Of a stretch of 64,000 bases of DNA, positions 9,919 to 18,824 are shown piece after piece. Below the pieces are notes generated by a model, which did not search any database, was not told the DNA's origin, and saw only the letters and a list, made by a program, of their open reading frames with translations. Made by a program: the position numbers and the translations under genes. Source of the stretch: Mesorhizobium sp. RMAD-H1 (lineage in GTDB: Bacteria; Pseudomonadota; Alphaproteobacteria; Rhizobiales; Rhizobiaceae); NCBI RefSeq assembly GCF_014191375.1, contig NZ_JACHWN010000001.1, forward strand, positions 434,001 through 498,000. Reading direction: 5' to 3'. How positions within the stretch are numbered: the first letter of the stretch is position 1; the number at the start of each line of letters is the position of its first letter.

Positions 9919-10170
9919 TCAGGATCCAGCCCGTGCAGGGTGCTCGGAGGCGGTGGCACAGCGCAGATAGTGTTCCGCGTGCTGATAATAGTTTTCCGCC
10001 TCGACGCTGTTTCCGTTCATTGCTTCCGCGCGCGCCAGCTCGATATAGCGTTCATATTGATTTTGCGCGCCGCGGGCCTTTACGGCCTGGCTGCGGTTCA
10101 CGTTGGAAGGCGAGCGCGCCGCCTGTTTCGTTCGGTTGCTTTTCATGTGTGTTTTCAAGCCATCATGCAT
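9919..10170 (-). CDS. Small DUF4167-like protein
   Basis: An 83-residue basic protein. The first 40 residues are Arg/Lys/Ser/Asn-rich. The second half contains a helix QYERYIELARAEAMNGNSVE followed by AENYYQHAEHYLR, which matches the core of DUF4167 proteins of Rhizobiales. Those are usually longer with extended low-complexity tails, so this is a short stand-alone version. The start at ATG 10170 has AAAGGAG eight bases upstream. It precedes the desaturase by six bases and is probably in the same operon. The molecular function of the family is not known to me. Confidence 0.75.
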   Translation of the reverse strand: MHDGLKTHMKSNRTKQAARSPSNVNRSQAVKARGAQNQYERYIELARAEAMNGNSVEAENYYQHAEHYLRCATASEHPARAGS

Positions 10171-10370
10171 GGCCTGCTCCTTTGATGGGCCGCAAGTGAT
10201 GCGACAAGCCGGTATTCGGCCATTGCTCGGGCCGGTATCCGGATTTGCATTTGCTGAGTGGGAGGATAGCTCAAGGCTTCGATCAACCTCACAGGGAACG
10301 AGCCGAGCATGGTGTTCAACAAAAGTTTATATATGCGCGCGCCTGCCTGATTACAAGCCGGCGTTTTTGC

Positions 10371-10396
10371 GGGCGCGCATCAGCTTCGGCGCGCCC
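10371..10396. terminator. GC-rich hairpin downstream of SDR gene
   Basis: A perfect 8-bp stem (GGGCGCGC / GCGCGCCC) with a 10-base loop lies 14 bases beyond the stop of the minus-strand SDR gene. There is no T-run, so termination is only possible. The remaining intergenic DNA (10171-10370) shows no gene. Confidence 0.4.
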
Positions 10397-10410
10397 GATA
10401 CATTTCCTGT

Positions 10411-11289
10411 TCAGTGCAGCCGGTTCTCCGTATGCTTGTTTTTAAGCCCGTCATGGCTGTGCTCCAGCGGCAGCATCGGCTGCGGCTGCTCGGCGAGCGT
10501 GCCGGGCACCTGCTGGCCCGGACCGCCCTTGGCGATCGTCGTGCCGCCATCGGCATACCAGAGCGCGCCGGTCACATAGCTCGCCTCATCAGAGGCCAGG
10601 AAGGCGTAGATATTGGCCATCTCTTCCGGCGTGCCGCGCCGGCCGAGCACCGTGCCCGCCACCGTCATCTTTTCCATCTGGGCGTCCATCGGCCCCGTTT
10701 CCTTGTAGGTCCAGGCGGTATCGATCGGGCCGGGGCAGACGCAATTGGCCCGCACGCCATATTGGCCCTGCTCGAAAGCCACACCTTTCATGAAGGCATG
10801 GATGAAGCCTTTGGTCCCGCCATAGGGCGCATTATTGCCTTCGCCCATCTCGCCGGATTCGGAGCCGGCCGAGAGCACCACGCCGCGTGTCTTCTGCAGG
10901 TGCGGCAGCGCGAACTTGGTCATCAGGAAAGTGGAGCGGATATTGTTGCGGATCGTCTGGTCGAACGCCTCCACCGAATAGTCCTGGCATTCCGCCACTT
11001 CGATGAAGACGCCGGCATTGTTGACGAGCACGTCCAGCCTGCCGAAGCGCTCCACCGCTTTCTCGACGCATCGGCGCGCCGCCTGTTCGTCCGCCACGTC
11101 GCCCGGACAGGCTTCAGCCTCGCCGCCATTCTCGCGAATCGCGCGCGCCACATCCTCCATGGGGTCGTCCGGCAGCCCGGCCACTACGAGCCTCGCGCCC
11201 TCCCGGGCGAATTTATGCGCGATCGCCTCGCCGATGCCGGCGCCGGCTCCGGTGATGATTGCCACCTTGCCTTGCAGTCGTCCTGCCAT
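10411..11289 (-). CDS. Short-chain dehydrogenase/reductase (stress-operon SDR)
   Basis: A 292-residue classical SDR. The cofactor loop TGAGAGIG, the NNAG motif, the catalytic Ser in VVLSAGSESG and the Y-x-x-x-K of PYGGTKG are present, and the C-terminal GALWYADGG end is typical. About 35 extra residues follow that end, rich in Pro, Gln and His, which is longer than the usual 250-residue core. Substrate unknown. It lies 43 bases downstream of a small gene with an EcfG-type promoter and is likely part of that stress transcript. Confidence 0.85.
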   Translation of the reverse strand: MAGRLQGKVAIITGAGAGIGEAIAHKFAREGARLVVAGLPDDPMEDVARAIRENGGEAEACPGDVADEQAARRCVEKAVERFGRLDVLVNNAGVFIEVAECQDYSVEAFDQTIRNNIRSTFLMTKFALPHLQKTRGVVLSAGSESGEMGEGNNAPYGGTKGFIHAFMKGVAFEQGQYGVRANCVCPGPIDTAWTYKETGPMDAQMEKMTVAGTVLGRRGTPEEMANIYAFLASDEASYVTGALWYADGGTTIAKGGPGQQVPGTLAEQPQPMLPLEHSHDGLKNKHTENRLH

Positions 11290-11332
11290 TTTCGGATCTC
11301 CACTTGCTTGTCATCCTCGGTTCACAAAGATG

Positions 11333-11632
11333 TTATTGCTTCGGTTTCTCGACGCCGCGCGGCTCTGCCGTGCGTCTGGTCTGCTGCCCGACCGTGTCCG
11401 CCTGCACCTCCTCGTCATAGGGCGGCACCTGCCCGCCGCCGACATCGCCGGCGTCCGCCACGCGCCCGCCATTGGGTTCATCCTCGGGCGTCGTCTCTGC
11501 CTCGCTCCACACCTTGTCGGGATCACGCACGTCCTTCGACGTCGGCGCCGCCTTCCGGCGCTCCTGAGGAACATCCGTGCCTGTCGTCTTGCTGATTTTG
11601 GGCGTCTGGCGGCCAACCTGCTTGCTGGTCAT
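11333..11632 (-). CDS. Small hydrophilic hypothetical protein under EcfG-type promoter
   Basis: A 99-residue, highly polar and probably disordered protein rich in Lys, Arg, Glu, Pro and Thr. No domain is recognised. The ATG at 11632 has GGGAGGCG just upstream. A well-matched EcfG/RpoE2 promoter (GGAAC-N16-CGTT) lies about 40-60 bases before the start. It heads the probable operon with the SDR gene. Small disordered proteins of this kind are frequent in the general-stress regulons of Rhizobiales, but the function is unknown. Confidence 0.65.
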   Translation of the reverse strand: MTSKQVGRQTPKISKTTGTDVPQERRKAAPTSKDVRDPDKVWSEAETTPEDEPNGGRVADAGDVGGGQVPPYDEEVQADTVGQQTRRTAEPRGVEKPKQ

Positions 11633-11669
11633 CGTCGCCTCCCGTGATCGTTTCGTTTCAGGAAGACGA

Positions 11670-11694
11670 ACGGGGCGGGGGCCTTATTGTTCCT
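11670..11694 (-). promoter_or_regulatory. EcfG/RpoE2-type general stress promoter
   Basis: On the minus strand: GGAAC (11694-11690), a 16-base spacer, then CGTT (11673-11670). This matches the alphaproteobacterial general stress sigma consensus GGAAC-N16/17-cGTT without mismatch. It serves the 99-residue gene and probably the SDR. Confidence 0.85.
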
Positions 11695-12078
11695 GTCGGG
11701 CGACAGGCAATCCGCTGTCGAAGATGGCTTTTGTCAGCGGCTGCCGATCAGCCAATGCTCACAATGCGTTACAGGCTGAAGCAAAATATGGCTTCAGCGT
11801 CACGAAGCTGCCCTCTACCCATGTATAACGGTTGATGTTCCGGTTTTCGTGTGAAACCGGAATTTCGGGATGGCTGTGCGCCGGATCAACTGCATTTGCC
11901 GATCCAAATTTGTTGCTGCGACGGCCCGTCCCGGCATGCGGGCAAGCCGTGCCGTCTCGCTGCGCGCCCAGCCCGAAACAATGTTGCTCTCTTGGAGGAG
12001 CGTGCGACCGACGTCGAATGGAACTTTTCAGGCGTCATCGGAATTAGGCAGAGGAAACAAACACTTCGGGAATTTGCC
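11695..12078. other. Intergenic leader region of the sulfotransferase operon
   Basis: A stretch of about 380 bases between the divergent stress gene and the sulfotransferase-like operon. The frame of the downstream gene stays open back to 11851, but this part has no plausible start signal and atypical composition. A weak EcfG-like element (GGAAC near 12020, TT 19 bases later) was seen but lacks the GTT core. Confidence 0.35.
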
Positions 12079-13527
12079 GTGAAAATGGAGAAGGAAAGCC
12101 CCAATAAGCATCGGTCTCGGTCGGAACAGGCTGAAGGCGAGCCCTCTTCGAGGCTGGATCGGATCCTGCGAACGGTGAGCATGACGGGATGCGCGCTGCT
12201 GCTGTTCGTCGCCGGTGCGATAACCACGACAGGCGAGATCTTTCCTGGTCCGCAGATCGCCGCCGCTTATGAAGGGGGCAGGGCGCTTTACGACAAGGTC
12301 GTCAACTATCAGAACGTCTACGATACCGATCTCTGGTACCCGCAGCGCTCTGCCAAAAAGGGCGTGACGGCCTATGTTCCCGGCAAGGCGCAGGACGGGC
12401 TGACGCTCTATACCTCCGGCGACGGGCCAGCGGCCTATCTCATCGACATGAACGGCAAGGTCGTGCACGAATGGCGCCGGCCCTTCAGCACCCTCTGGCC
12501 GAAGGGGCCGCGCGGCAAGCTCTGGCAGGCGGGCGCGCAAACCGTATCGAAGCCCCAGCCCGATCCCTTCGTCTATTTCCGCCAGGCGCATGTCTTTCCC
12601 AATGGTGATCTGCTGGCGCTTTACGAAGGAGCGGGCGACACGCCCTATGGCTATGGTCTGGTCAAGCTCGACAAGAACTCCAACGTCATATGGAGCTATG
12701 CGGGGCGGGCCCACCATCAGTTCGACATCGGCCCCGACGGCAAGATTTATGTGCTGACGCACGAATATTCCAAGGAGAGGCTGAAACATTACGGCCATCT
12801 GAAGCCGCCGCGTCTCGATGACTATCTCGTCGTGCTTTCGCCCGATGGCGAGGAACTGGAGAAGATTCATTTGATGAAGGCGCTGGGCGATTCTCCCTAT
12901 CGCCAGCTGGGCTATTCGGTCTCGAATTTCTCCGTCGCCGAACCGGTCCATGCCAATGCCGTCGACTATGTGACGAGGGAGATGGCCGCCAATTTTCCGT
13001 TCGCCAGGGAAGGGCAGGTCCTGCTTTCCTTCCGCGAAATCGGCACGGGAACGGTCGCTGTGCTCGATCCGGGCACCAAGCAGATCACCTGGGCCACGAA
13101 CGGCCCGTGGATCGGCCAGCATGATCCGGATATCTTGCCCAACGGCAATATCCTGCTCTTCGATAATTTCGGCCATTTCCTTGGGCCCGAAGGCCAGACG
13201 CGCGTCGTGGAGTTCAATCCGCGCACGATGGAGATCGTCTGGCGTTACACGGGCACTGCCGACCATCCGCTGGACAGCCCGATCCGCGGTGAGCAGCAGC
13301 GCCTCGCAAATGGCAACACGCTGATCGATGAATCCTGCGCCGGCCGCCTGGTCGAGGTGACGCAGGACGGGCAGATCGTCTGGGAGTTCTTCAATCCCGC
13401 ACGCGGCGGCGATGACGGCGACAAGATTGCGATCTTTGGGTGGGCTCAACGGCTGTCCCCCTCCGACCTCGAGTTTCTGGGGCAGCCTGACGGGGCAAAA
13501 CAGCCAGACAAGGAGACACGAACATGA
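12079..13527 (+). CDS. Exported/membrane-anchored arylsulfotransferase (ASST)-like protein
   Basis: About 482 residues. A basic N-terminus is followed by one hydrophobic segment (TGCALLLFVAGAITTTG), which is a membrane anchor or signal. The rest is a repeat-rich beta-propeller of the arylsulfotransferase type, with DPDILPNGNILLFDN, RQAHVFPNGDLLALYEG and repeated WxY/NG blades. Classical ASST enzymes move sulfate from aryl sulfates to phenols in the periplasm without PAPS; PF14269-type relatives such as this are poorly characterised and may lack that activity. Start: GTG at 12079 with GGGA at good spacing; ATG at 12085 is an alternative. The stop overlaps the next gene as ATGA. It is the first gene of a four-gene operon ending in a PAPS-type sulfotransferase. 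Confidence 0.8.
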   Translation: MKMEKESPNKHRSRSEQAEGEPSSRLDRILRTVSMTGCALLLFVAGAITTTGEIFPGPQIAAAYEGGRALYDKVVNYQNVYDTDLWYPQRSAKKGVTAYVPGKAQDGLTLYTSGDGPAAYLIDMNGKVVHEWRRPFSTLWPKGPRGKLWQAGAQTVSKPQPDPFVYFRQAHVFPNGDLLALYEGAGDTPYGYGLVKLDKNSNVIWSYAGRAHHQFDIGPDGKIYVLTHEYSKERLKHYGHLKPPRLDDYLVVLSPDGEELEKIHLMKALGDSPYRQLGYSVSNFSVAEPVHANAVDYVTREMAANFPFAREGQVLLSFREIGTGTVAVLDPGTKQITWATNGPWIGQHDPDILPNGNILLFDNFGHFLGPEGQTRVVEFNPRTMEIVWRYTGTADHPLDSPIRGEQQRLANGNTLIDESCAGRLVEVTQDGQIVWEFFNPARGGDDGDKIAIFGWAQRLSPSDLEFLGQPDGAKQPDKETRT

Positions 13528-13790
13528 AGAAATCTATTGGTTTGATCATATTGCTCGTCACGCTGTCCGAGCCCACTGCCGCCTTCGCCTATGTCGGGCC
13601 GGGCGCGGGCTTGAGTCTGCTTGGAGCGCTGTGGGCGCTGCTGGCGGCCGTGGCCACCGCCATCTTCTTTGTGGTAGCTTGGCCGATCCGCAAGATGGTG
13701 CGCAGCCGGCGCAGCAGGAAGCTCGTCGCGCAGGAGGCGACCGGGGACACCGTCAAGAGGGTTGCCGCATCCACGGGGCAGGAAAAATAA
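13524..13790 (+). CDS. Small YVGPGAG-motif membrane protein
   Basis: An 88-residue protein with a predicted signal peptide (hydrophobic stretch ending in AFA). The motif AYVGPGAGLSLLG follows at the mature N-terminus, then one transmembrane helix (LWALLAAVATAIFFVVAW) and a short basic cytoplasmic tail (RKMVRSRRSRK). The YxGPGAG motif recurs in small bacterial membrane proteins that sit beside phosphatases, sulfatases or sulfotransferases; their function is not known to me. Translation is coupled to the ASST-like gene by a 4-base overlap. A partner or scaffold role for the adjacent enzymes is inference only. Confidence 0.75.
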   Translation: MKKSIGLIILLVTLSEPTAAFAYVGPGAGLSLLGALWALLAAVATAIFFVVAWPIRKMVRSRRSRKLVAQEATGDTVKRVAASTGQEK

Positions 13791-13802
13791 GGGGGCCTTG
13801 CC

Positions 13803-14528
13803 ATGCTGGGCCTTCTCGACCTGCCGTCGCCCGTTCTGTCGCTGATCGATAGTATCCTGACACCGGTCCTTCCTCCTGTCGGCAGGATCGTCGTTTGGGC
13901 CGCGGTTGGCGCTTTCGTATCGATGGAGCTCTATCGCCTCCTGTCACCGCAGCAGCAGATCGCCGGATTGAAGCAGGACCTGCAGCGCACCCAACGGGAG
14001 TTGAATGAATTCGACGGCCCGTTCGAGGAGGCGTGGCCGCATATCCGCCGTATGCTCTCGCTTGCCTTCCGCCGCGTCATGATCGTGTTTCCGTCGACGC
14101 TGATCGCCTCGCTGCCCGTGCTGATCCTGATCATCTGGGCCGATGCGCATTACGGCAAGAGCTTCCCCCCGCCCGGCCAGCCTATCAGCGTCCATATCAC
14201 GGGCGATTATCAGGGCCGCTGGGTCGATACCGGCGACGGCGCGCCGCCAAAGGCCGAGGTGATGGACGGCGCCGGGCGCCGGGTAGCCGAGGTGGCGGTG
14301 CCCAAACCCGTCAAGACGGTTCATAAATTGCGCTGGTGGAACATCCTTATCGGCAATCCCGCCGGCTATCTGCCCGATGACGCGCCCTTCGATCAGGTGG
14401 ATATCGCGCTGCCCCAGCAGCAATTCTTCTCCTCCGGCCCCGACTGGCTGCGCGGCTGGGAGCCGATCTTCTTCGCCTCGCTGCTGCTCTTTGCACTGAC
14501 GTTGAAGATCGTCCGCCGGATCGAATGA
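13803..14528 (+). CDS. Three-helix membrane protein of unknown function (EMC3/TMCO1-like topology)
   Basis: A 241-residue membrane protein. TM1 is at about residues 25-45, followed by a short coiled coil (QQQIAGLKQDLQRTQREL). An amphipathic basic stretch and TM2 (about 95-115) come next. A polar domain of about 100 residues (120-215), including PVKTVHKLRWWN, leads to TM3 near the C-terminus, ending in a basic tail. The order TM, coiled coil, TM, TM recalls the DUF106/EMC3/TMCO1 branch of the Oxa1 insertases, but here a large extracytoplasmic domain separates TM2 and TM3, so homology is unproven. It sits 12 bases after the YVGPGAG gene and 16 before the sulfotransferase. Confidence 0.7.
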   Translation: MLGLLDLPSPVLSLIDSILTPVLPPVGRIVVWAAVGAFVSMELYRLLSPQQQIAGLKQDLQRTQRELNEFDGPFEEAWPHIRRMLSLAFRRVMIVFPSTLIASLPVLILIIWADAHYGKSFPPPGQPISVHITGDYQGRWVDTGDGAPPKAEVMDGAGRRVAEVAVPKPVKTVHKLRWWNILIGNPAGYLPDDAPFDQVDIALPQQQFFSSGPDWLRGWEPIFFASLLLFALTLKIVRRIE

Positions 14529-14544
14529 CAATCGGAAAAATGAG

Positions 14545-15675
14545 ATGGATCAGACGGTAAAGCAGTCCGCCCCTATGGAGGTCGATCCGTGGACGGACAG
14601 GGTCGGCGGTCTTCTCGAGCGGTTCCCGGGCCTGATGATCAGGGCGGGCGATTGGGAAACGCGTATGCTGCGCGACCGCCTTGCGGAGATCGCCATCGAC
14701 CGGCCGGTCTATGTCGCCGGTCTGGCGCGCTCGGGCAGCACCATTCTTCTGGAGCTTCTTGCCCGCCATCCGGAAGCCGTCACGCACCGCTATCGCGATT
14801 TTCCGCTCCTGCCGATCCCTTGGGGCTGGAACTGGTTCGTCGATCGCGCCGGCCAGGTCGAACGGCAAGCAAAGGAACGCGCCCATCGCGACCGCATCGT
14901 GGTCACGCCCGAAAGCCCCGAGGCCTTTGAAGAGGTGCTCTGGAGCGCCTTCTTCGCCGGCCTGCATGATGAGGAGAAGAGCGCCGTGCTCGACCGCAAC
15001 ACGGCGCATCCCCGTTTCGAAGCCTTTTATCGCGACCATATCCGCAAGCTCCTGGCCCTGCGCGGGGGCAAGCGTTATGTCTCCAAGGGCAATTACAACG
15101 TCACCCGCATCGCCTATCTCAAGAAGATCCTGCCCGACGCGCGCTTCGTCGTGCCCATCAGGGACCCCGTCTGGCATATCGCCTCTCTGGTGAAGCAGCA
15201 CCGCCTTTTCCTGACAGCTGGCGCCGGGGATGAGCGGGTCCGGCGGCATATGCGGCGCAGCGGCCATTTCGAGTTCGGACCCGACCGCTGCGCCATCAAC
15301 ATAGCGCGTGACGGCGCGCCCGCACGCGCGGCACTTCATTGGCGGAATGGAGAAGAAATCGCCGGGTGGGCGGCGCAATGGGCCGATGTCTATGGCCATG
15401 TCGCCGACCTGATGCAGGACGCCGAGACGGCACAGGCAATCAAAATCGTGCGCTACGAGGATTTCTGTGCCGATCCCGGCCCGGTCTTTGCCGAGGTGCT
15501 GCAGCATTGCGGGTTGGAGCCGGCCGGCCTCATAGAGACAGCCGGCAGGATGGTCAGCCCGCCCACCTATTACGAGCCGTCCTTCACCTCGGCCGAACGC
15601 GACACCATCCGTGATCTCACGGCGGATGTAGCCGGCCGCTTCGGCTATGGCCAGGTCCTCAAAGAGGCGAATTAA
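14545..15675 (+). CDS. PAPS-dependent sulfotransferase family protein
   Basis: A 376-residue cytosolic protein with both cofactor signatures of PAPS sulfotransferases: the 5'-phosphosulfate loop YVAGLARSGSTILLELLARHP-like region (about residues 55-75) and the 3'-phosphate motif in RFVVPIRDPVWHIASLV (about 205-225). A late YEDFCADPGPVFAEV segment is also typical of the family (RYEDL-like). It would transfer sulfate from PAPS to a hydroxyl on a glycan, lipid or small molecule; the acceptor is unknown. Last gene of the operon starting at 12079. The 3' end overlaps the convergent gene 15672-15995 by four bases. Confidence 0.85.
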   Translation: MDQTVKQSAPMEVDPWTDRVGGLLERFPGLMIRAGDWETRMLRDRLAEIAIDRPVYVAGLARSGSTILLELLARHPEAVTHRYRDFPLLPIPWGWNWFVDRAGQVERQAKERAHRDRIVVTPESPEAFEEVLWSAFFAGLHDEEKSAVLDRNTAHPRFEAFYRDHIRKLLALRGGKRYVSKGNYNVTRIAYLKKILPDARFVVPIRDPVWHIASLVKQHRLFLTAGAGDERVRRHMRRSGHFEFGPDRCAINIARDGAPARAALHWRNGEEIAGWAAQWADVYGHVADLMQDAETAQAIKIVRYEDFCADPGPVFAEVLQHCGLEPAGLIETAGRMVSPPTYYEPSFTSAERDTIRDLTADVAGRFGYGQVLKEAN

Positions 15676-15995
15676 TCAGCCTCCACCCCGAGCTTCTTGG
15701 CCTTTTCCTCGAATTCGTCGCGGATGTCGTTGATCGTCGGCAGGTCCAGTGCCTTCAGTTCGGCATGAATCTTCTTCGCCGGATCGGAATCGAGGTCACG
15801 CCTGAAATTGACGAGCACATCCCGGGCCGAATCATAGTCTCGGAAACGCTCGATCTCGGCACGTGTCGCCTCCTGCACGTCTTTGAGCTTCCTGCGTTCG
15901 CTTTCGCTGCGGCCATCCGGCTTGGCCTTCATCACTGGATCGAATGCGCGCTCGACGACGAAATCGACGAGCTGACGTCTGGCCTCGGCTGCCAT
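15672..15995 (-). CDS. Small helical hypothetical protein
   Basis: A 107-residue, charged, mostly alpha-helical protein beginning MAAEARRQLVDFVVERAFDPV and containing RFRDYDSARDVLVNFRRDL. No catalytic motif is visible. It follows the DUF3008 gene by ten bases on the same strand, so both are probably expressed from the EcfG-like promoter at 16236-16260. Function unknown; a stress role is inferred only from the promoter and context. Confidence 0.7.
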   Translation of the reverse strand: MAAEARRQLVDFVVERAFDPVMKAKPDGRSESERRKLKDVQEATRAEIERFRDYDSARDVLVNFRRDLDSDPAKKIHAELKALDLPTINDIRDEFEEKAKKLGVEAD

Positions 15996-16005
15996 GGAAG
16001 TCTCC

Positions 16006-16197
16006 TCAGTCGGATTTGGATGCGTGTTCCGGTTTGCCTTTGCGCTTGGTCGAAGCCACGTCGTGCAATTCTTTTTCGCTCATTGACTCGACCATGGATT
16101 TCGAAGCGCCTTTCAGTTCGCTCTTCTTCTTTTCGCCGCGCTTGGCGGCAAGCGCGGCCCCGGCTGCCATCTGCTGGCTCTTTGATTTGGCGGGCAT
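16006..16197 (-). CDS. DUF3008 family small basic protein
   Basis: A 63-residue lysine-rich protein matching the DUF3008 pattern almost throughout: MPAKSKSQQMAAGAALAAKRG at the start, then LKGASKSMVESMSEKEL and a KGKPEHASKSD end. Such proteins are very abundant in Rhizobiales genomes and are often stress-induced, but no molecular function is established. It is first in a two-gene unit with 15672-15995 and has an EcfG-like promoter just upstream. Confidence 0.88.
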   Translation of the reverse strand: MPAKSKSQQMAAGAALAAKRGEKKKSELKGASKSMVESMSEKELHDVASTKRKGKPEHASKSD

Positions 16198-16773: not shown

Positions 16774-16803
16774 GAAACCCTCTTCTTGCTTGGCCTTTCA
16801 CAC

Positions 16804-16828
16804 GGAACTTATGCGCTTCAGGACGATT
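16804..16828 (+). promoter_or_regulatory. EcfG-type promoter of the CBS-domain gene
   Basis: GGAAC (16804-16808) followed 18 bases later by TT (16827-16828) fits the RpoE2 consensus GGAAC-N18/19-TT, although the bases before TT are GA rather than CG. The CBS gene starts 36 bases downstream. Confidence 0.6.
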
Positions 16829-16863
16829 AGGGCCGCATGTCGCATAAGAAACGGGAGAGTGAG

Positions 16864-17292
16864 ATGCAGGTCCAGGAAATCATGACGCGCGGCGCCGAAG
16901 TTATCGATCCCAACACGACCATCCGGGACGCGGCCCGCAGAATGCGTGCGGATAATATCGGTGCGCTGCCGGTGGGCGAAAACGACCGGCTCATTGGCAT
17001 GGTCACCGATCGCGATATCGCCATGCGCGCCGTTGCCGAGGAACGTCCGGCTGGCAATACCACGGTGCGCGAGGTGATGTCGGAGCATGTCTATTACTGC
17101 TTCGAGGATCAGGACGTGGACGAGGTGGCTGAATATATGGCCGAACATCAGGTTCGCCGCCTGCCGATCCTGAACCGGGGCAAGCGTCTGGTCGGCGTCG
17201 TGGCGCTCGCCGATATCGCCCGCTCGGGAACGGATGCCGTGAAGACCGCGCTCGGTGGCATTTCCCAGCCGTCGGATCAGCCTCGTCACTGA
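16864..17292 (+). CDS. CBS-domain pair protein
   Basis: A 142-residue stand-alone Bateman module. Two CBS repeats are visible: VQEIMTRGAEVIDPNTTI...RLIGMVTDRDIAMRAV and VREVMSEHVYYC...LVGVVALADIA. Such modules bind adenosine nucleotides and act as sensors; no effector domain is attached, so the partner is unknown. ATG at 16864 was chosen for its GGGAGAG ribosome site, over an upstream ATG at 16837. A stress promoter candidate precedes it and a 10-bp hairpin follows. Confidence 0.9.
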   Translation: MQVQEIMTRGAEVIDPNTTIRDAARRMRADNIGALPVGENDRLIGMVTDRDIAMRAVAEERPAGNTTVREVMSEHVYYCFEDQDVDEVAEYMAEHQVRRLPILNRGKRLVGVVALADIARSGTDAVKTALGGISQPSDQPRH

Positions 17293-17319
17293 TCGCGGAC
17301 AATTCAGAAAATATACCTG

Positions 17320-17343
17320 CCGCACCTGAACGCTCAGGTGCGG
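17320..17343. terminator. Hairpin after CBS gene
   Basis: A perfect 10-bp stem (CCGCACCTGA / TCAGGTGCGG) with a 4-base ACGC loop lies 27 bases after the CBS stop codon. No T-run follows, so it is a probable but not typical terminator. Confidence 0.55.
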
Positions 17344-17478
17344 TCGTTGGTATGCCCGTTCAACAAAAAAATCCAACCCTGTCGGATTGCAGGCCGCTCG
17401 TTCGTCCTTGGCATGTGTGTCCACTTGCAGGAAGGGCTGAGTGTGCCAAACTGCGATCAGCAATCTGGAGGAAATATC

Positions 17479-17832
17479 ATGGCTTATGTCGATGGTTTTG
17501 TTTTGGCGGTGCCGAAGGCAAACCGCGAGGCTTTCAAAAGGCTTGCGGAGGATGCGGCGGTGGTCTTCAAGGAACATGGCGCGTTGAGCGTCATCGAGTG
17601 CTGGGGCGACGACGTGCCGGACGGCGAAGTCACCTCGTTTCCCATGGCCGTCAAATGCCAACCGGACGAGGTTGTGTGCTTCTCCTGGATCGTCTGGCCT
17701 TCGCGCGAGGTCCGCGATGCCGGAAACCAGAAGGTAATGGAAGACCCGCGCATGAAAATGCCTGACGGTGACGCGCCGTTCGATGGCAAGCGCATGATCT
17801 ATGGCGGCTTCGAGGTGCTCGTCGAACGCTGA
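17479..17832 (+). CDS. DUF1428 family protein
   Basis: A 117-residue protein of the DUF1428 (dimeric alpha/beta barrel-like) family: MAYVDGFVLAVPKANREAF, then VIECWGDDVPDG, FSWIVWPSREVRD and a closing GKRMIYGGFEVLVE. E. coli YbaA is a comparable protein. No function is established. The start has GGAGGAAA upstream. The gene stands alone between two hairpins. Confidence 0.9.
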   Translation: MAYVDGFVLAVPKANREAFKRLAEDAAVVFKEHGALSVIECWGDDVPDGEVTSFPMAVKCQPDEVVCFSWIVWPSREVRDAGNQKVMEDPRMKMPDGDAPFDGKRMIYGGFEVLVER

Positions 17833-17878
17833 CCCGATCAGAAACCTGGCCGGATCTTCCCGATCGGCCATGGTTATC

Positions 17879-17904
17879 GCATGGTTCCGGCGCAGGAACC
17901 ATGC
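17879..17904. terminator. Hairpin after DUF1428 gene
   Basis: A perfect 10-bp stem (GCATGGTTCC / GGAACCATGC) with loop GGCGCA, 46 bases after the DUF1428 stop and 35 before the SDR start. No strong T-run. The right arm contains GGAACC but has no matching -10, so it is not called a stress promoter. Confidence 0.45.
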
Positions 17905-17939
17905 GTTTATGAGTTCCACGGGAGCAGAGTGAGATCACC

Positions 17940-18824
17940 ATGACAGCGGCTACCAGCGCAACGGACGGCGTTTCCATATCCGCAGCCTTTGCCCCCGGAA
18001 ATGTTGCCGTCGTCACCGGCGCGGCCTCCGGCATCGGGCTTGCTGTGGCCAAGCGCTTTGCCGGTTTCGGCATGAGGGTCGTGCTCGCCGACCGCAATGT
18101 CGAAACCCTTGCCAAGGCCGCCGATGACGTCGCTGCTGCGGCGCAAGAGGGTTCGGCCCATGTCATGGCGATTGCGACCGATGTCGGAGACAGGGCCTCA
18201 TTGCGGGCGCTGGAGGAGCAGGTGCGCCGGACATGGGGCAAGGTGCATGTGCTGATGAACAATGCCGGCATCCAGCCCGGCAGTGCCATCTTCGGCCCAC
18301 AGGATAACTGGGATTCCGTGCTGCGCGTGAATCTGGGTGGCGTCATCGACGGCACGCGCATCTTCGTGCCCGAGATGATCGAGCATGGCGAACCCGCGCT
18401 CGTCATTAACACCGGTTCCAAGCAGGGCATCACCACGCCTCCGGGCGATCCGGCCTATAATGTCTCGAAGTCGGGTGTGAAAACCTTCACGGAAGCCCTG
18501 CAGCACGAATTGCGCAACCGCGAGAACTGCCGGGTTGCCGCCCACCTGCTGATCCCCGGCTTCGTCTTCACACCGCTTGCGGCCGGTGGCCGGACGGAAA
18601 GGCCTGCCGGCGCCTGGACGCCGGAGCAGACGGTGGAATTCATGCTGCAAAGGCTGGGGGAGGGCGACTTCTACATATTGTGCCCCGACAATGACGTGCC
18701 TCGCGAGCTCGATGAAAAGCGCATTCGCTGGGCCGCCGACGATATCGTGCTCAACCGTCCGCCGCTCTCGCGCTGGCACAAGGACTATGCAGAAGCCTTC
18801 AGGGCTTTCGTCGAAAAGGAATGA
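17940..18824 (+). CDS. Short-chain dehydrogenase/reductase
   Basis: A 294-residue SDR. Cofactor motif TGAASGIG, NNAG motif, catalytic Ser in INTGSKQGI and Y-x-x-x-K in AYNVSKSG are all visible. The C-terminal third lacks the GG ending of FabG-like enzymes and instead contains YILCPDNDVPRELDEKR, seen in a subgroup of SDRs of unknown substrate. The preference for NADP or NAD cannot be told by eye. Start ATG 17940 is preceded by GGGAGCAGAGTGAG. It is followed by the anti-SD RNA array on the opposite strand. Confidence 0.88.
   Translation: MTAATSATDGVSISAAFAPGNVAVVTGAASGIGLAVAKRFAGFGMRVVLADRNVETLAKAADDVAAAAQEGSAHVMAIATDVGDRASLRALEEQVRRTWGKVHVLMNNAGIQPGSAIFGPQDNWDSVLRVNLGGVIDGTRIFVPEMIEHGEPALVINTGSKQGITTPPGDPAYNVSKSGVKTFTEALQHELRNRENCRVAAHLLIPGFVFTPLAAGGRTERPAGAWTPEQTVEFMLQRLGEGDFYILCPDNDVPRELDEKRIRWAADDIVLNRPPLSRWHKDYAEAFRAFVEKE

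Follow-up and report, generated by a model that had tools for sequence, protein, structure and literature searches.

Four adjacent genes in a 64,000-nucleotide stretch of Mesorhizobium sp. RMAD-H1 (contig NZ_JACHWN010000001.1, positions 434,001 to 498,000; hereafter the window, to which our coordinates refer) form a cassette that is rare but real and conserved. The cassette combines an arylsulfotransferase-like protein (ASST) with a sulfotransferase (ST) of the type that uses 3′-phosphoadenosine 5′-phosphosulfate (PAPS) and places between them two membrane proteins, YVG and TM3, the second of which resembles the Oxa1 superfamily. We propose, with confidence that is evenly balanced, that its products carry out sulfation as a two-step relay across the inner membrane.

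A tightly packed four-gene cassette

The cassette comprises four open reading frames (ORFs) of the plus strand in the order ASST-YVG-TM3-ST, spanning 12079-15675 of the window, within a host genome of 5.14 Mb:

12079-13527, plus strand: ASST, arylsulfotransferase-like propeller (PF14269) predicted to lie on the periplasmic side, with a membrane helix at its N terminus
13524-13790, plus strand: YVG, 88-amino-acid YVGPGAG mini membrane protein with a signal-like N terminus
13803-14528, plus strand: TM3, 241-amino-acid Oxa1-superfamily-like (DUF106/EMC3/TMCO1-type) membrane protein
14178-14459, plus strand: TM3 beta domain (about residues 126-219), lying after helix 2 and before helix 3
14545-15675, plus strand: ST, PAPS-type sulfotransferase (PF13469) without a membrane helix

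The close packing described in the initial annotation held in coordinates, strand and spacing, with ASST and YVG overlapping by four bases (ATGA; spacing −4) and the following genes separated by +12 and +16 bases. By hydropathy, ASST has a single N-terminal helix, YVG a signal-like stretch and one helix, and TM3 three helices; ST has none. The ASST gene starts at either GTG 12079 or ATG 12085, and its reading frame is open further upstream; we counted ASST residues from the GTG. Judged by TM3, the closest named relatives found were Paramesorhizobium deserti (89% identical) and Phyllobacterium phragmitis (82%).

The cassette recurs across families

We searched for TM3 in near relatives (n = 151), in genomes of the class (n = 385) and in genomes of the phylum (n = 249), counting the window's own genome in each set, and found that it was rare, with matches in 6, 7 and 2 genomes, respectively, or 13 distinct genomes. 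Ten of these 13, spread over seven families and including the genome of the window, contained all four genes in the same order (G000, G002, G004, G040, G117, G308, G335, G354, G472 and G696, by our labels), and an eleventh full cassette was carried on a plasmid of Paroceanicella profunda. Spacings as called ranged from −14 to +29 bases across the ten genomes and the plasmid, and the recurrence of the gene order in them exceeds chance. The co-occurrence that the initial annotation had put forward as a check was therefore borne out in one respect, in that the three partners usually stand with TM3 (10/13 genomes), but not in another, in that most relatives lack the cassette (TM3 in 6/151). The three exceptions retained parts of it: in G103, ST lay beside a C-terminal TM3 remnant only; in G351, YVG-TM3-ST stood at a contig end without an adjacent ASST, and three ASSTs occurred on other short contigs; and in G382, a TM3 domain was found within a fusion protein, with a YVG-ST pair elsewhere on the contig.

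With the species tree ignored, the pairwise distances of the four proteins across the 11 cassettes co-varied with r of 0.88–0.96, and for the ASST-ST, ASST-TM3 and TM3-ST comparisons the observed correlation was reached in 0/5000 permutations. The ASST of the Paroceanicella plasmid clustered with that of G040, which belongs to the window's own family (support 100/98), and this grouping suggests that the cassette probably moves between orders. Beyond the genus, flanking genes were not consistently shared, as judged from clustered, unannotated flanking genes, with a short-chain dehydrogenase-like gene recurring in four loci and two other families in two loci each. Within the genus, three of six genomes had TM3. 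In the congener G005, which lacks TM3, the flanks were collinear with those of the window and the segment corresponding to 10072-16012, containing the cassette and a dehydrogenase gene, was missing. G005 also had no counterpart of 16777-17971.

Conserved residues in the two sulfotransferases

ST had been described in the initial annotation as a cytosolic sulfotransferase with both PAPS motifs, a description that our results support. It matched PF13469 (76.8 bits, cut-off 27), has no membrane helix, and contains GLARSGST, which we take to be the phosphosulfate loop, and IRDPVWHIASL, presumably the 3′-phosphate-type motif; motif residues G64, T66, R206 and S214 were invariant in 14/14 aligned sequences. 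Remote kin of ST included protein-tyrosine sulfotransferases. From its adenosine 5′-phosphosulfate (APS) kinase, the host is expected to be capable of PAPS synthesis.

ASST scored above cut-off by hmmscan for both PF14269 (91.9 bits, cut-off 27) and PF05935 (32.7 bits, cut-off 24.2); a PF05935 search of the host genome gave no match, evidently missing ASST. Eight positions (H212, H213, H291, N293, S317, R319, Q347 and H348) were invariant in 13 homologues that were 19–89% identical to the ASST of the window. Among 21 ST-linked copies, H212, H213, H291, N293, S317 and H348 were kept in 21/21 and R319 and Q347 in 20/21, the lone deviant being the ASST of G408, which has a very long branch; among 14 other copies, each of these positions was kept in 12–14 (H348 in 13). 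A profile search aligned Q347-H348 with the QH at 435–436 of Escherichia coli AssT (3elq), a weak match (E 0.0065), and R319 with an Arg in 9kf6, a sulfotransferase of solved structure (E 1.9e-8). His436 is the sulfated residue of AssT, whose site further comprises His252, His356, Asn358, Arg374 and Thr501 (PMC13426309; here and below, papers are cited for the portions of their text available to us). The HH, HxN and R elements, invariant in 13/13 homologues, occur in an order that fits this site, and the spacing of H291-x-N293 fits that of His356-x-Asn358, both being comparisons of order and spacing and not residue-by-residue alignments to AssT. We propose H212, H213, H291, N293, S317, R319 and H348 as the candidate active site. 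The initial annotation had named the loss of every catalytic His and Arg as a result that would count against it; instead, the catalytic-type His, Asn and Arg positions are kept and H348 aligns with His436. Two ASST paralogues of one genus, without a nearby ST (L078:5905-7212 and L079:6850-8115), had lost five of ten examined positions and, with most of the catalytic-type residues gone, may be non-catalytic.

TM3 is like members of the Oxa1 superfamily

YVG carries invariant A22-Y23 and G25-P26-G27 directly after an AxA site, followed by a membrane helix and a basic tail. Neither YVG nor TM3 matched a Pfam family above cut-off, and a Pfam search of 13 TM3 members at E up to 1 likewise matched none. 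A profile search with TM3 found archaeal MJ0480 (E 2.4e-9), the sole PDB sequence with E up to 10, and the structure model of TM3, which was confident, had as its best fold match one chain of the multipass translocon (7tut, chain 8), probably TMCO1. Hydropathy, the model and the fold match all indicated a core of three membrane helices with a helical hairpin, which we infer from the charges to be on the cytoplasmic side; a three-helix core with a cytoplasmic helical hairpin is the definition of the Oxa1 superfamily (PMC8675477). TM3 is thus Oxa1-superfamily-like, and the resemblance to EMC3 and TMCO1 remarked on in the initial annotation is now backed by both the MJ0480 profile match and the translocon fold match. 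An insertase or scramblase role would follow only by analogy: Oxa1-superfamily proteins are protein insertases (PMC8675477, PMC8887752), and lipid scrambling by Oxa1-family proteins has been seen in vitro or in simulation (PMC10491306). The beta domain of TM3, outside by its charge pattern, holds the best-conserved stretch of the protein, residues 171–192 (the HKLRWWNILIGNPAGYL region).

Related layouts and genomic context

Linkage was also visible from the other genes of the cassette. In a sample of 289 genomes, YVG had matches in 13 and ASST in 20, and both were found in 10 genomes versus 0.9 expected (hypergeometric P 5e-11, kinship ignored); among these 10, the two genes were not neighbours in G359 and G382 and were on different contigs in G351. 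The G359 locus (L045:4404-11038) contains a YVDPG mini protein near genes that, by eye, resemble those for APS kinase, a pyruvate-kinase/ATP-sulfurylase fusion, a methyltransferase and a sulfatase. On plasmids, a relative of ST occurred in eight records, with an ASST less than 1 kb away in 7/8 and a YVG protein in 6/8; the relative on a Stanieria plasmid had neither nearby.

A second type of cassette has, where TM3 would stand, a short membrane protein that shows an invariant KE within an SDxxKE-like motif and no detectable kinship to TM3. This type (loci L097-L102, L042, L043 and L046) was found on plasmids and in three genomes, G356, G367 and, with one additional ORF inside it, G202; in Tateyamaria, Paracoccus and G367, ST and the short membrane protein form a single fused protein.

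Two further loci linked YVG or TM3 to a different enzyme. G382 encodes a 920-residue protein with a PF01663 (type I phosphodiesterase) body and a C-terminal TM3 domain (L026:8209-10971); its separate YVG-ST pair (L041:7575-8966) lies elsewhere on the same contig. In G373, a YIGPGAG segment heads a PF01663 protein, and a downstream TM3-like ORF is 18% identical to the TM3 of the window. On the basis of these fusions, YVG and TM3 seem to be a membrane module able to serve two kinds of enzymes. The G373 locus (L044:2771-8541) also encodes a second PF01663 protein and a divergent PF13469 sulfotransferase.

The TM3-bearing loci annotated for context were those of the window and Paroceanicella, and the annotated flanks of the latter had no glycan gene except a polysaccharide deacetylase. 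Polysaccharide loci surrounded the relatives in Tateyamaria and strain SC52, both of which lack TM3. In addition, a Sagittula relative without TM3 adjoins an epimerase gene, with a sugar transferase gene 5 kb away, and the TM3-less G408 relative has adjacent genes that looked nucleotidyltransferase-like by eye. Because relatives occupy polysaccharide loci, the acceptor is probably a surface glycan. A glycan-gene setting that would suit the sulfated surface molecule envisaged in the initial annotation is clear around the two TM3-less relatives in Tateyamaria and SC52, but was not found among the ten scanned neighbours of the window cassette. On the Rhodobacteraceae SC52 plasmid, the segment L101:1719-8957 places two ASST-like proteins and two sulfotransferases inside an O-antigen/polysaccharide locus.

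A proposed relay and its alternatives

From the genes, their linkage, their conserved residues and the Oxa1-type relationship, all of which can be read in the sequences, we infer the direction, carrier, flipping and acceptor of the proposed two-step relay. ST would act in the cytosol, moving sulfate from PAPS onto a carrier; a phenolic compound soluble in the membrane, for example a quinol, is the probable candidate. The sulfated carrier would then pass to the outer leaflet, probably aided by TM3 with YVG as an accessory; the Oxa1-superfamily relatives of TM3 have a hydrophilic groove, and because Oxa1-family proteins scramble lipids, TM3 could allow the passage of a sulfated lipid head. Membrane-anchored ASST would finally accept the sulfate on H348 and hand it to an outside acceptor, most likely the surface glycan. 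We found no carrier-making gene (type III polyketide synthase, PKS) in the cassette, among the ten neighbours in the window or in the annotated Paroceanicella flanks, which leads us to expect a common molecule as the carrier. A stricter form of the proposal, in which TM3 with YVG is a bacterial Oxa1-superfamily carrier flippase in a path leading from PAPS through a lipid-linked phenol sulfate made by ST to ASST and the surface glycan, strikes us as possible but doubtful. If true, it would name a natural ASST donor system and assign a metabolic role of its own to an Oxa1-type protein.

Several points weigh against a relay of this kind. The choice of a quinol is a guess of our own (Stf3 belongs to the sulfomenaquinone cluster of Mycobacterium tuberculosis; PMC7081687), the structure model of ASST was too poor to use (mean predicted local distance difference test score, pLDDT, 51), also for recognising an N-terminal beta-sandwich like that of AssT, a scan of the ten neighbours of the window cassette found no glycan gene, and both clear polysaccharide contexts belong to the looser, TM3-less type. 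Several ASST-ST systems lack TM3 and have the short unrelated protein instead, and TM3 is therefore not indispensable to the ASST-ST pair. Furthermore, a nearby ST was demonstrated in 8 of the 20 ASST-positive genomes of the 289 sampled (G000, G202, G308, G335, G354, G356, G367 and G408), a count outside which fall the G357, G413 and G428 loci and one G359 locus, and the G351 contigs bearing ASST were short. Plasmid ASST matches occurred in 35 records (3 of which were inspected starting from ASST) versus only 8 for ST relatives.

These ASST relatives without a nearby ST, together with the O-antigen locus of the SC52 plasmid and its two STs and two ASSTs, would also fit two independent sulfations. 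ST would then act on a cytosolic precursor, ASST would separately sulfate the exported product, or shift sulfate around on it, by means of external aryl sulfates, and the genes would be clustered because they modify the same molecule and not because one supplies the other. Known bacterial arylsulfotransferases (ASTs) indeed take aryl sulfates supplied in vitro, their natural donors being unidentified (PMC13426309). We nonetheless consider this arrangement unlikely, as the close linkage and co-variation of ST and ASST across families, and the presence of an ASST less than 1 kb from seven of the eight plasmid ST relatives, suggest a closer dependency.

It is quite unlikely that TM3, instead of moving a carrier, is an insertase or assembly factor dedicated to putting ASST and YVG into the membrane. 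The host is expected to carry a YidC of its own, which speaks against a dedicated insertase, and the added domain with its best-conserved stretch, together with the PF01663 fusion in one genome, suggests that TM3 works with the enzyme itself. Consistent with an insertase are the match to MJ0480 and the insertion of proteins by members of the superfamily (PMC8675477, PMC8887752).

Finally, although ASTs are ping-pong enzymes that draw sulfate from aryl sulfates (PMC13426309) and the substrate of ST is not established, it is very improbable that the system runs backwards or scavenges, with ASST stripping sulfate off external aryl sulfates while ST modifies an unrelated cytosolic compound, because consumption of PAPS makes little sense there and two relatives are located in polysaccharide biosynthesis loci.

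Relationship to known systems

The periplasmic AssT of E. coli CFT073 (3ELQ) belongs to the same family as ASST by the weak profile match that aligns H348 with His436, whereas its gene lies in a disulfide-bond formation operon without a PAPS sulfotransferase (PMC10932419), and its natural substrate is not established (PMC13426309). According to the same 2026 review, in the text available, more than 40 years have passed without a natural substrate for bacterial ASTs, the established role being credited to Cpz4 only; in the single donor study that it cites, no donors other than aryl sulfates worked, and PAPS was unusable for ASTs apart from one putative Haliangium exception (PMC13426309). A PAPS sulfotransferase beside an ASST that looks active from its residues would offer a source for the ASST donor, a proposal that can be tested in soil bacteria.

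With the Oxa1 superfamily (MJ0480/DUF106, EMC3 and TMCO1), TM3 shares the three-helix core with a helical hairpin, but it differs in the beta domain that separates helices 2 and 3, as well as in being encoded in a bacterial operon with two sulfotransferases. Its place in the cassette suggests possible small-molecule or lipid handling by an Oxa1-superfamily-like protein, which has been thinkable since the work on lipid scrambling by insertases (PMC10491306). The synechan-type pathways of cyanobacteria likewise use PAPS sulfotransferases and produce sulfated surface glycans, but combine the sulfotransferases with Wzx/Wzy or ABC export, and the term arylsulfo is absent from the available text describing them (PMC13125312).

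The initial annotation had regarded the composition of the locus as undescribed. For the set of four genes this agrees with the literature we searched, which contained no description of an ASST-YVG-TM3-ST cassette, but a PAPS sulfotransferase and an ASST are already known as a pair from caprazamycin biosynthesis (PMC6731281). There, Cpz8 sulfates a pyrone from PAPS and the ASST-type Cpz4 moves the sulfate to the antibiotic (PMC6731281, PMC4924298). The Cpz8/Cpz4 pair of Streptomyces is the closest known system, with a PAPS sulfotransferase and an ASST encoded together. It differs in that a type III PKS encoded in its own cluster supplies the pyrone carrier and the antibiotic is the acceptor, whereas the cassette has no carrier-making gene, gives its ASST a membrane helix and adds two membrane proteins. 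Because we found no dedicated carrier synthase, we liken the cassette to the Cpz8/Cpz4 relay and do not class it as a member. By this analogy, the simplest reading of the cassette would be a Cpz8/Cpz4-like relay stretched across the membrane, and what would be new is this membrane-spanning version with its Oxa1-type partner.

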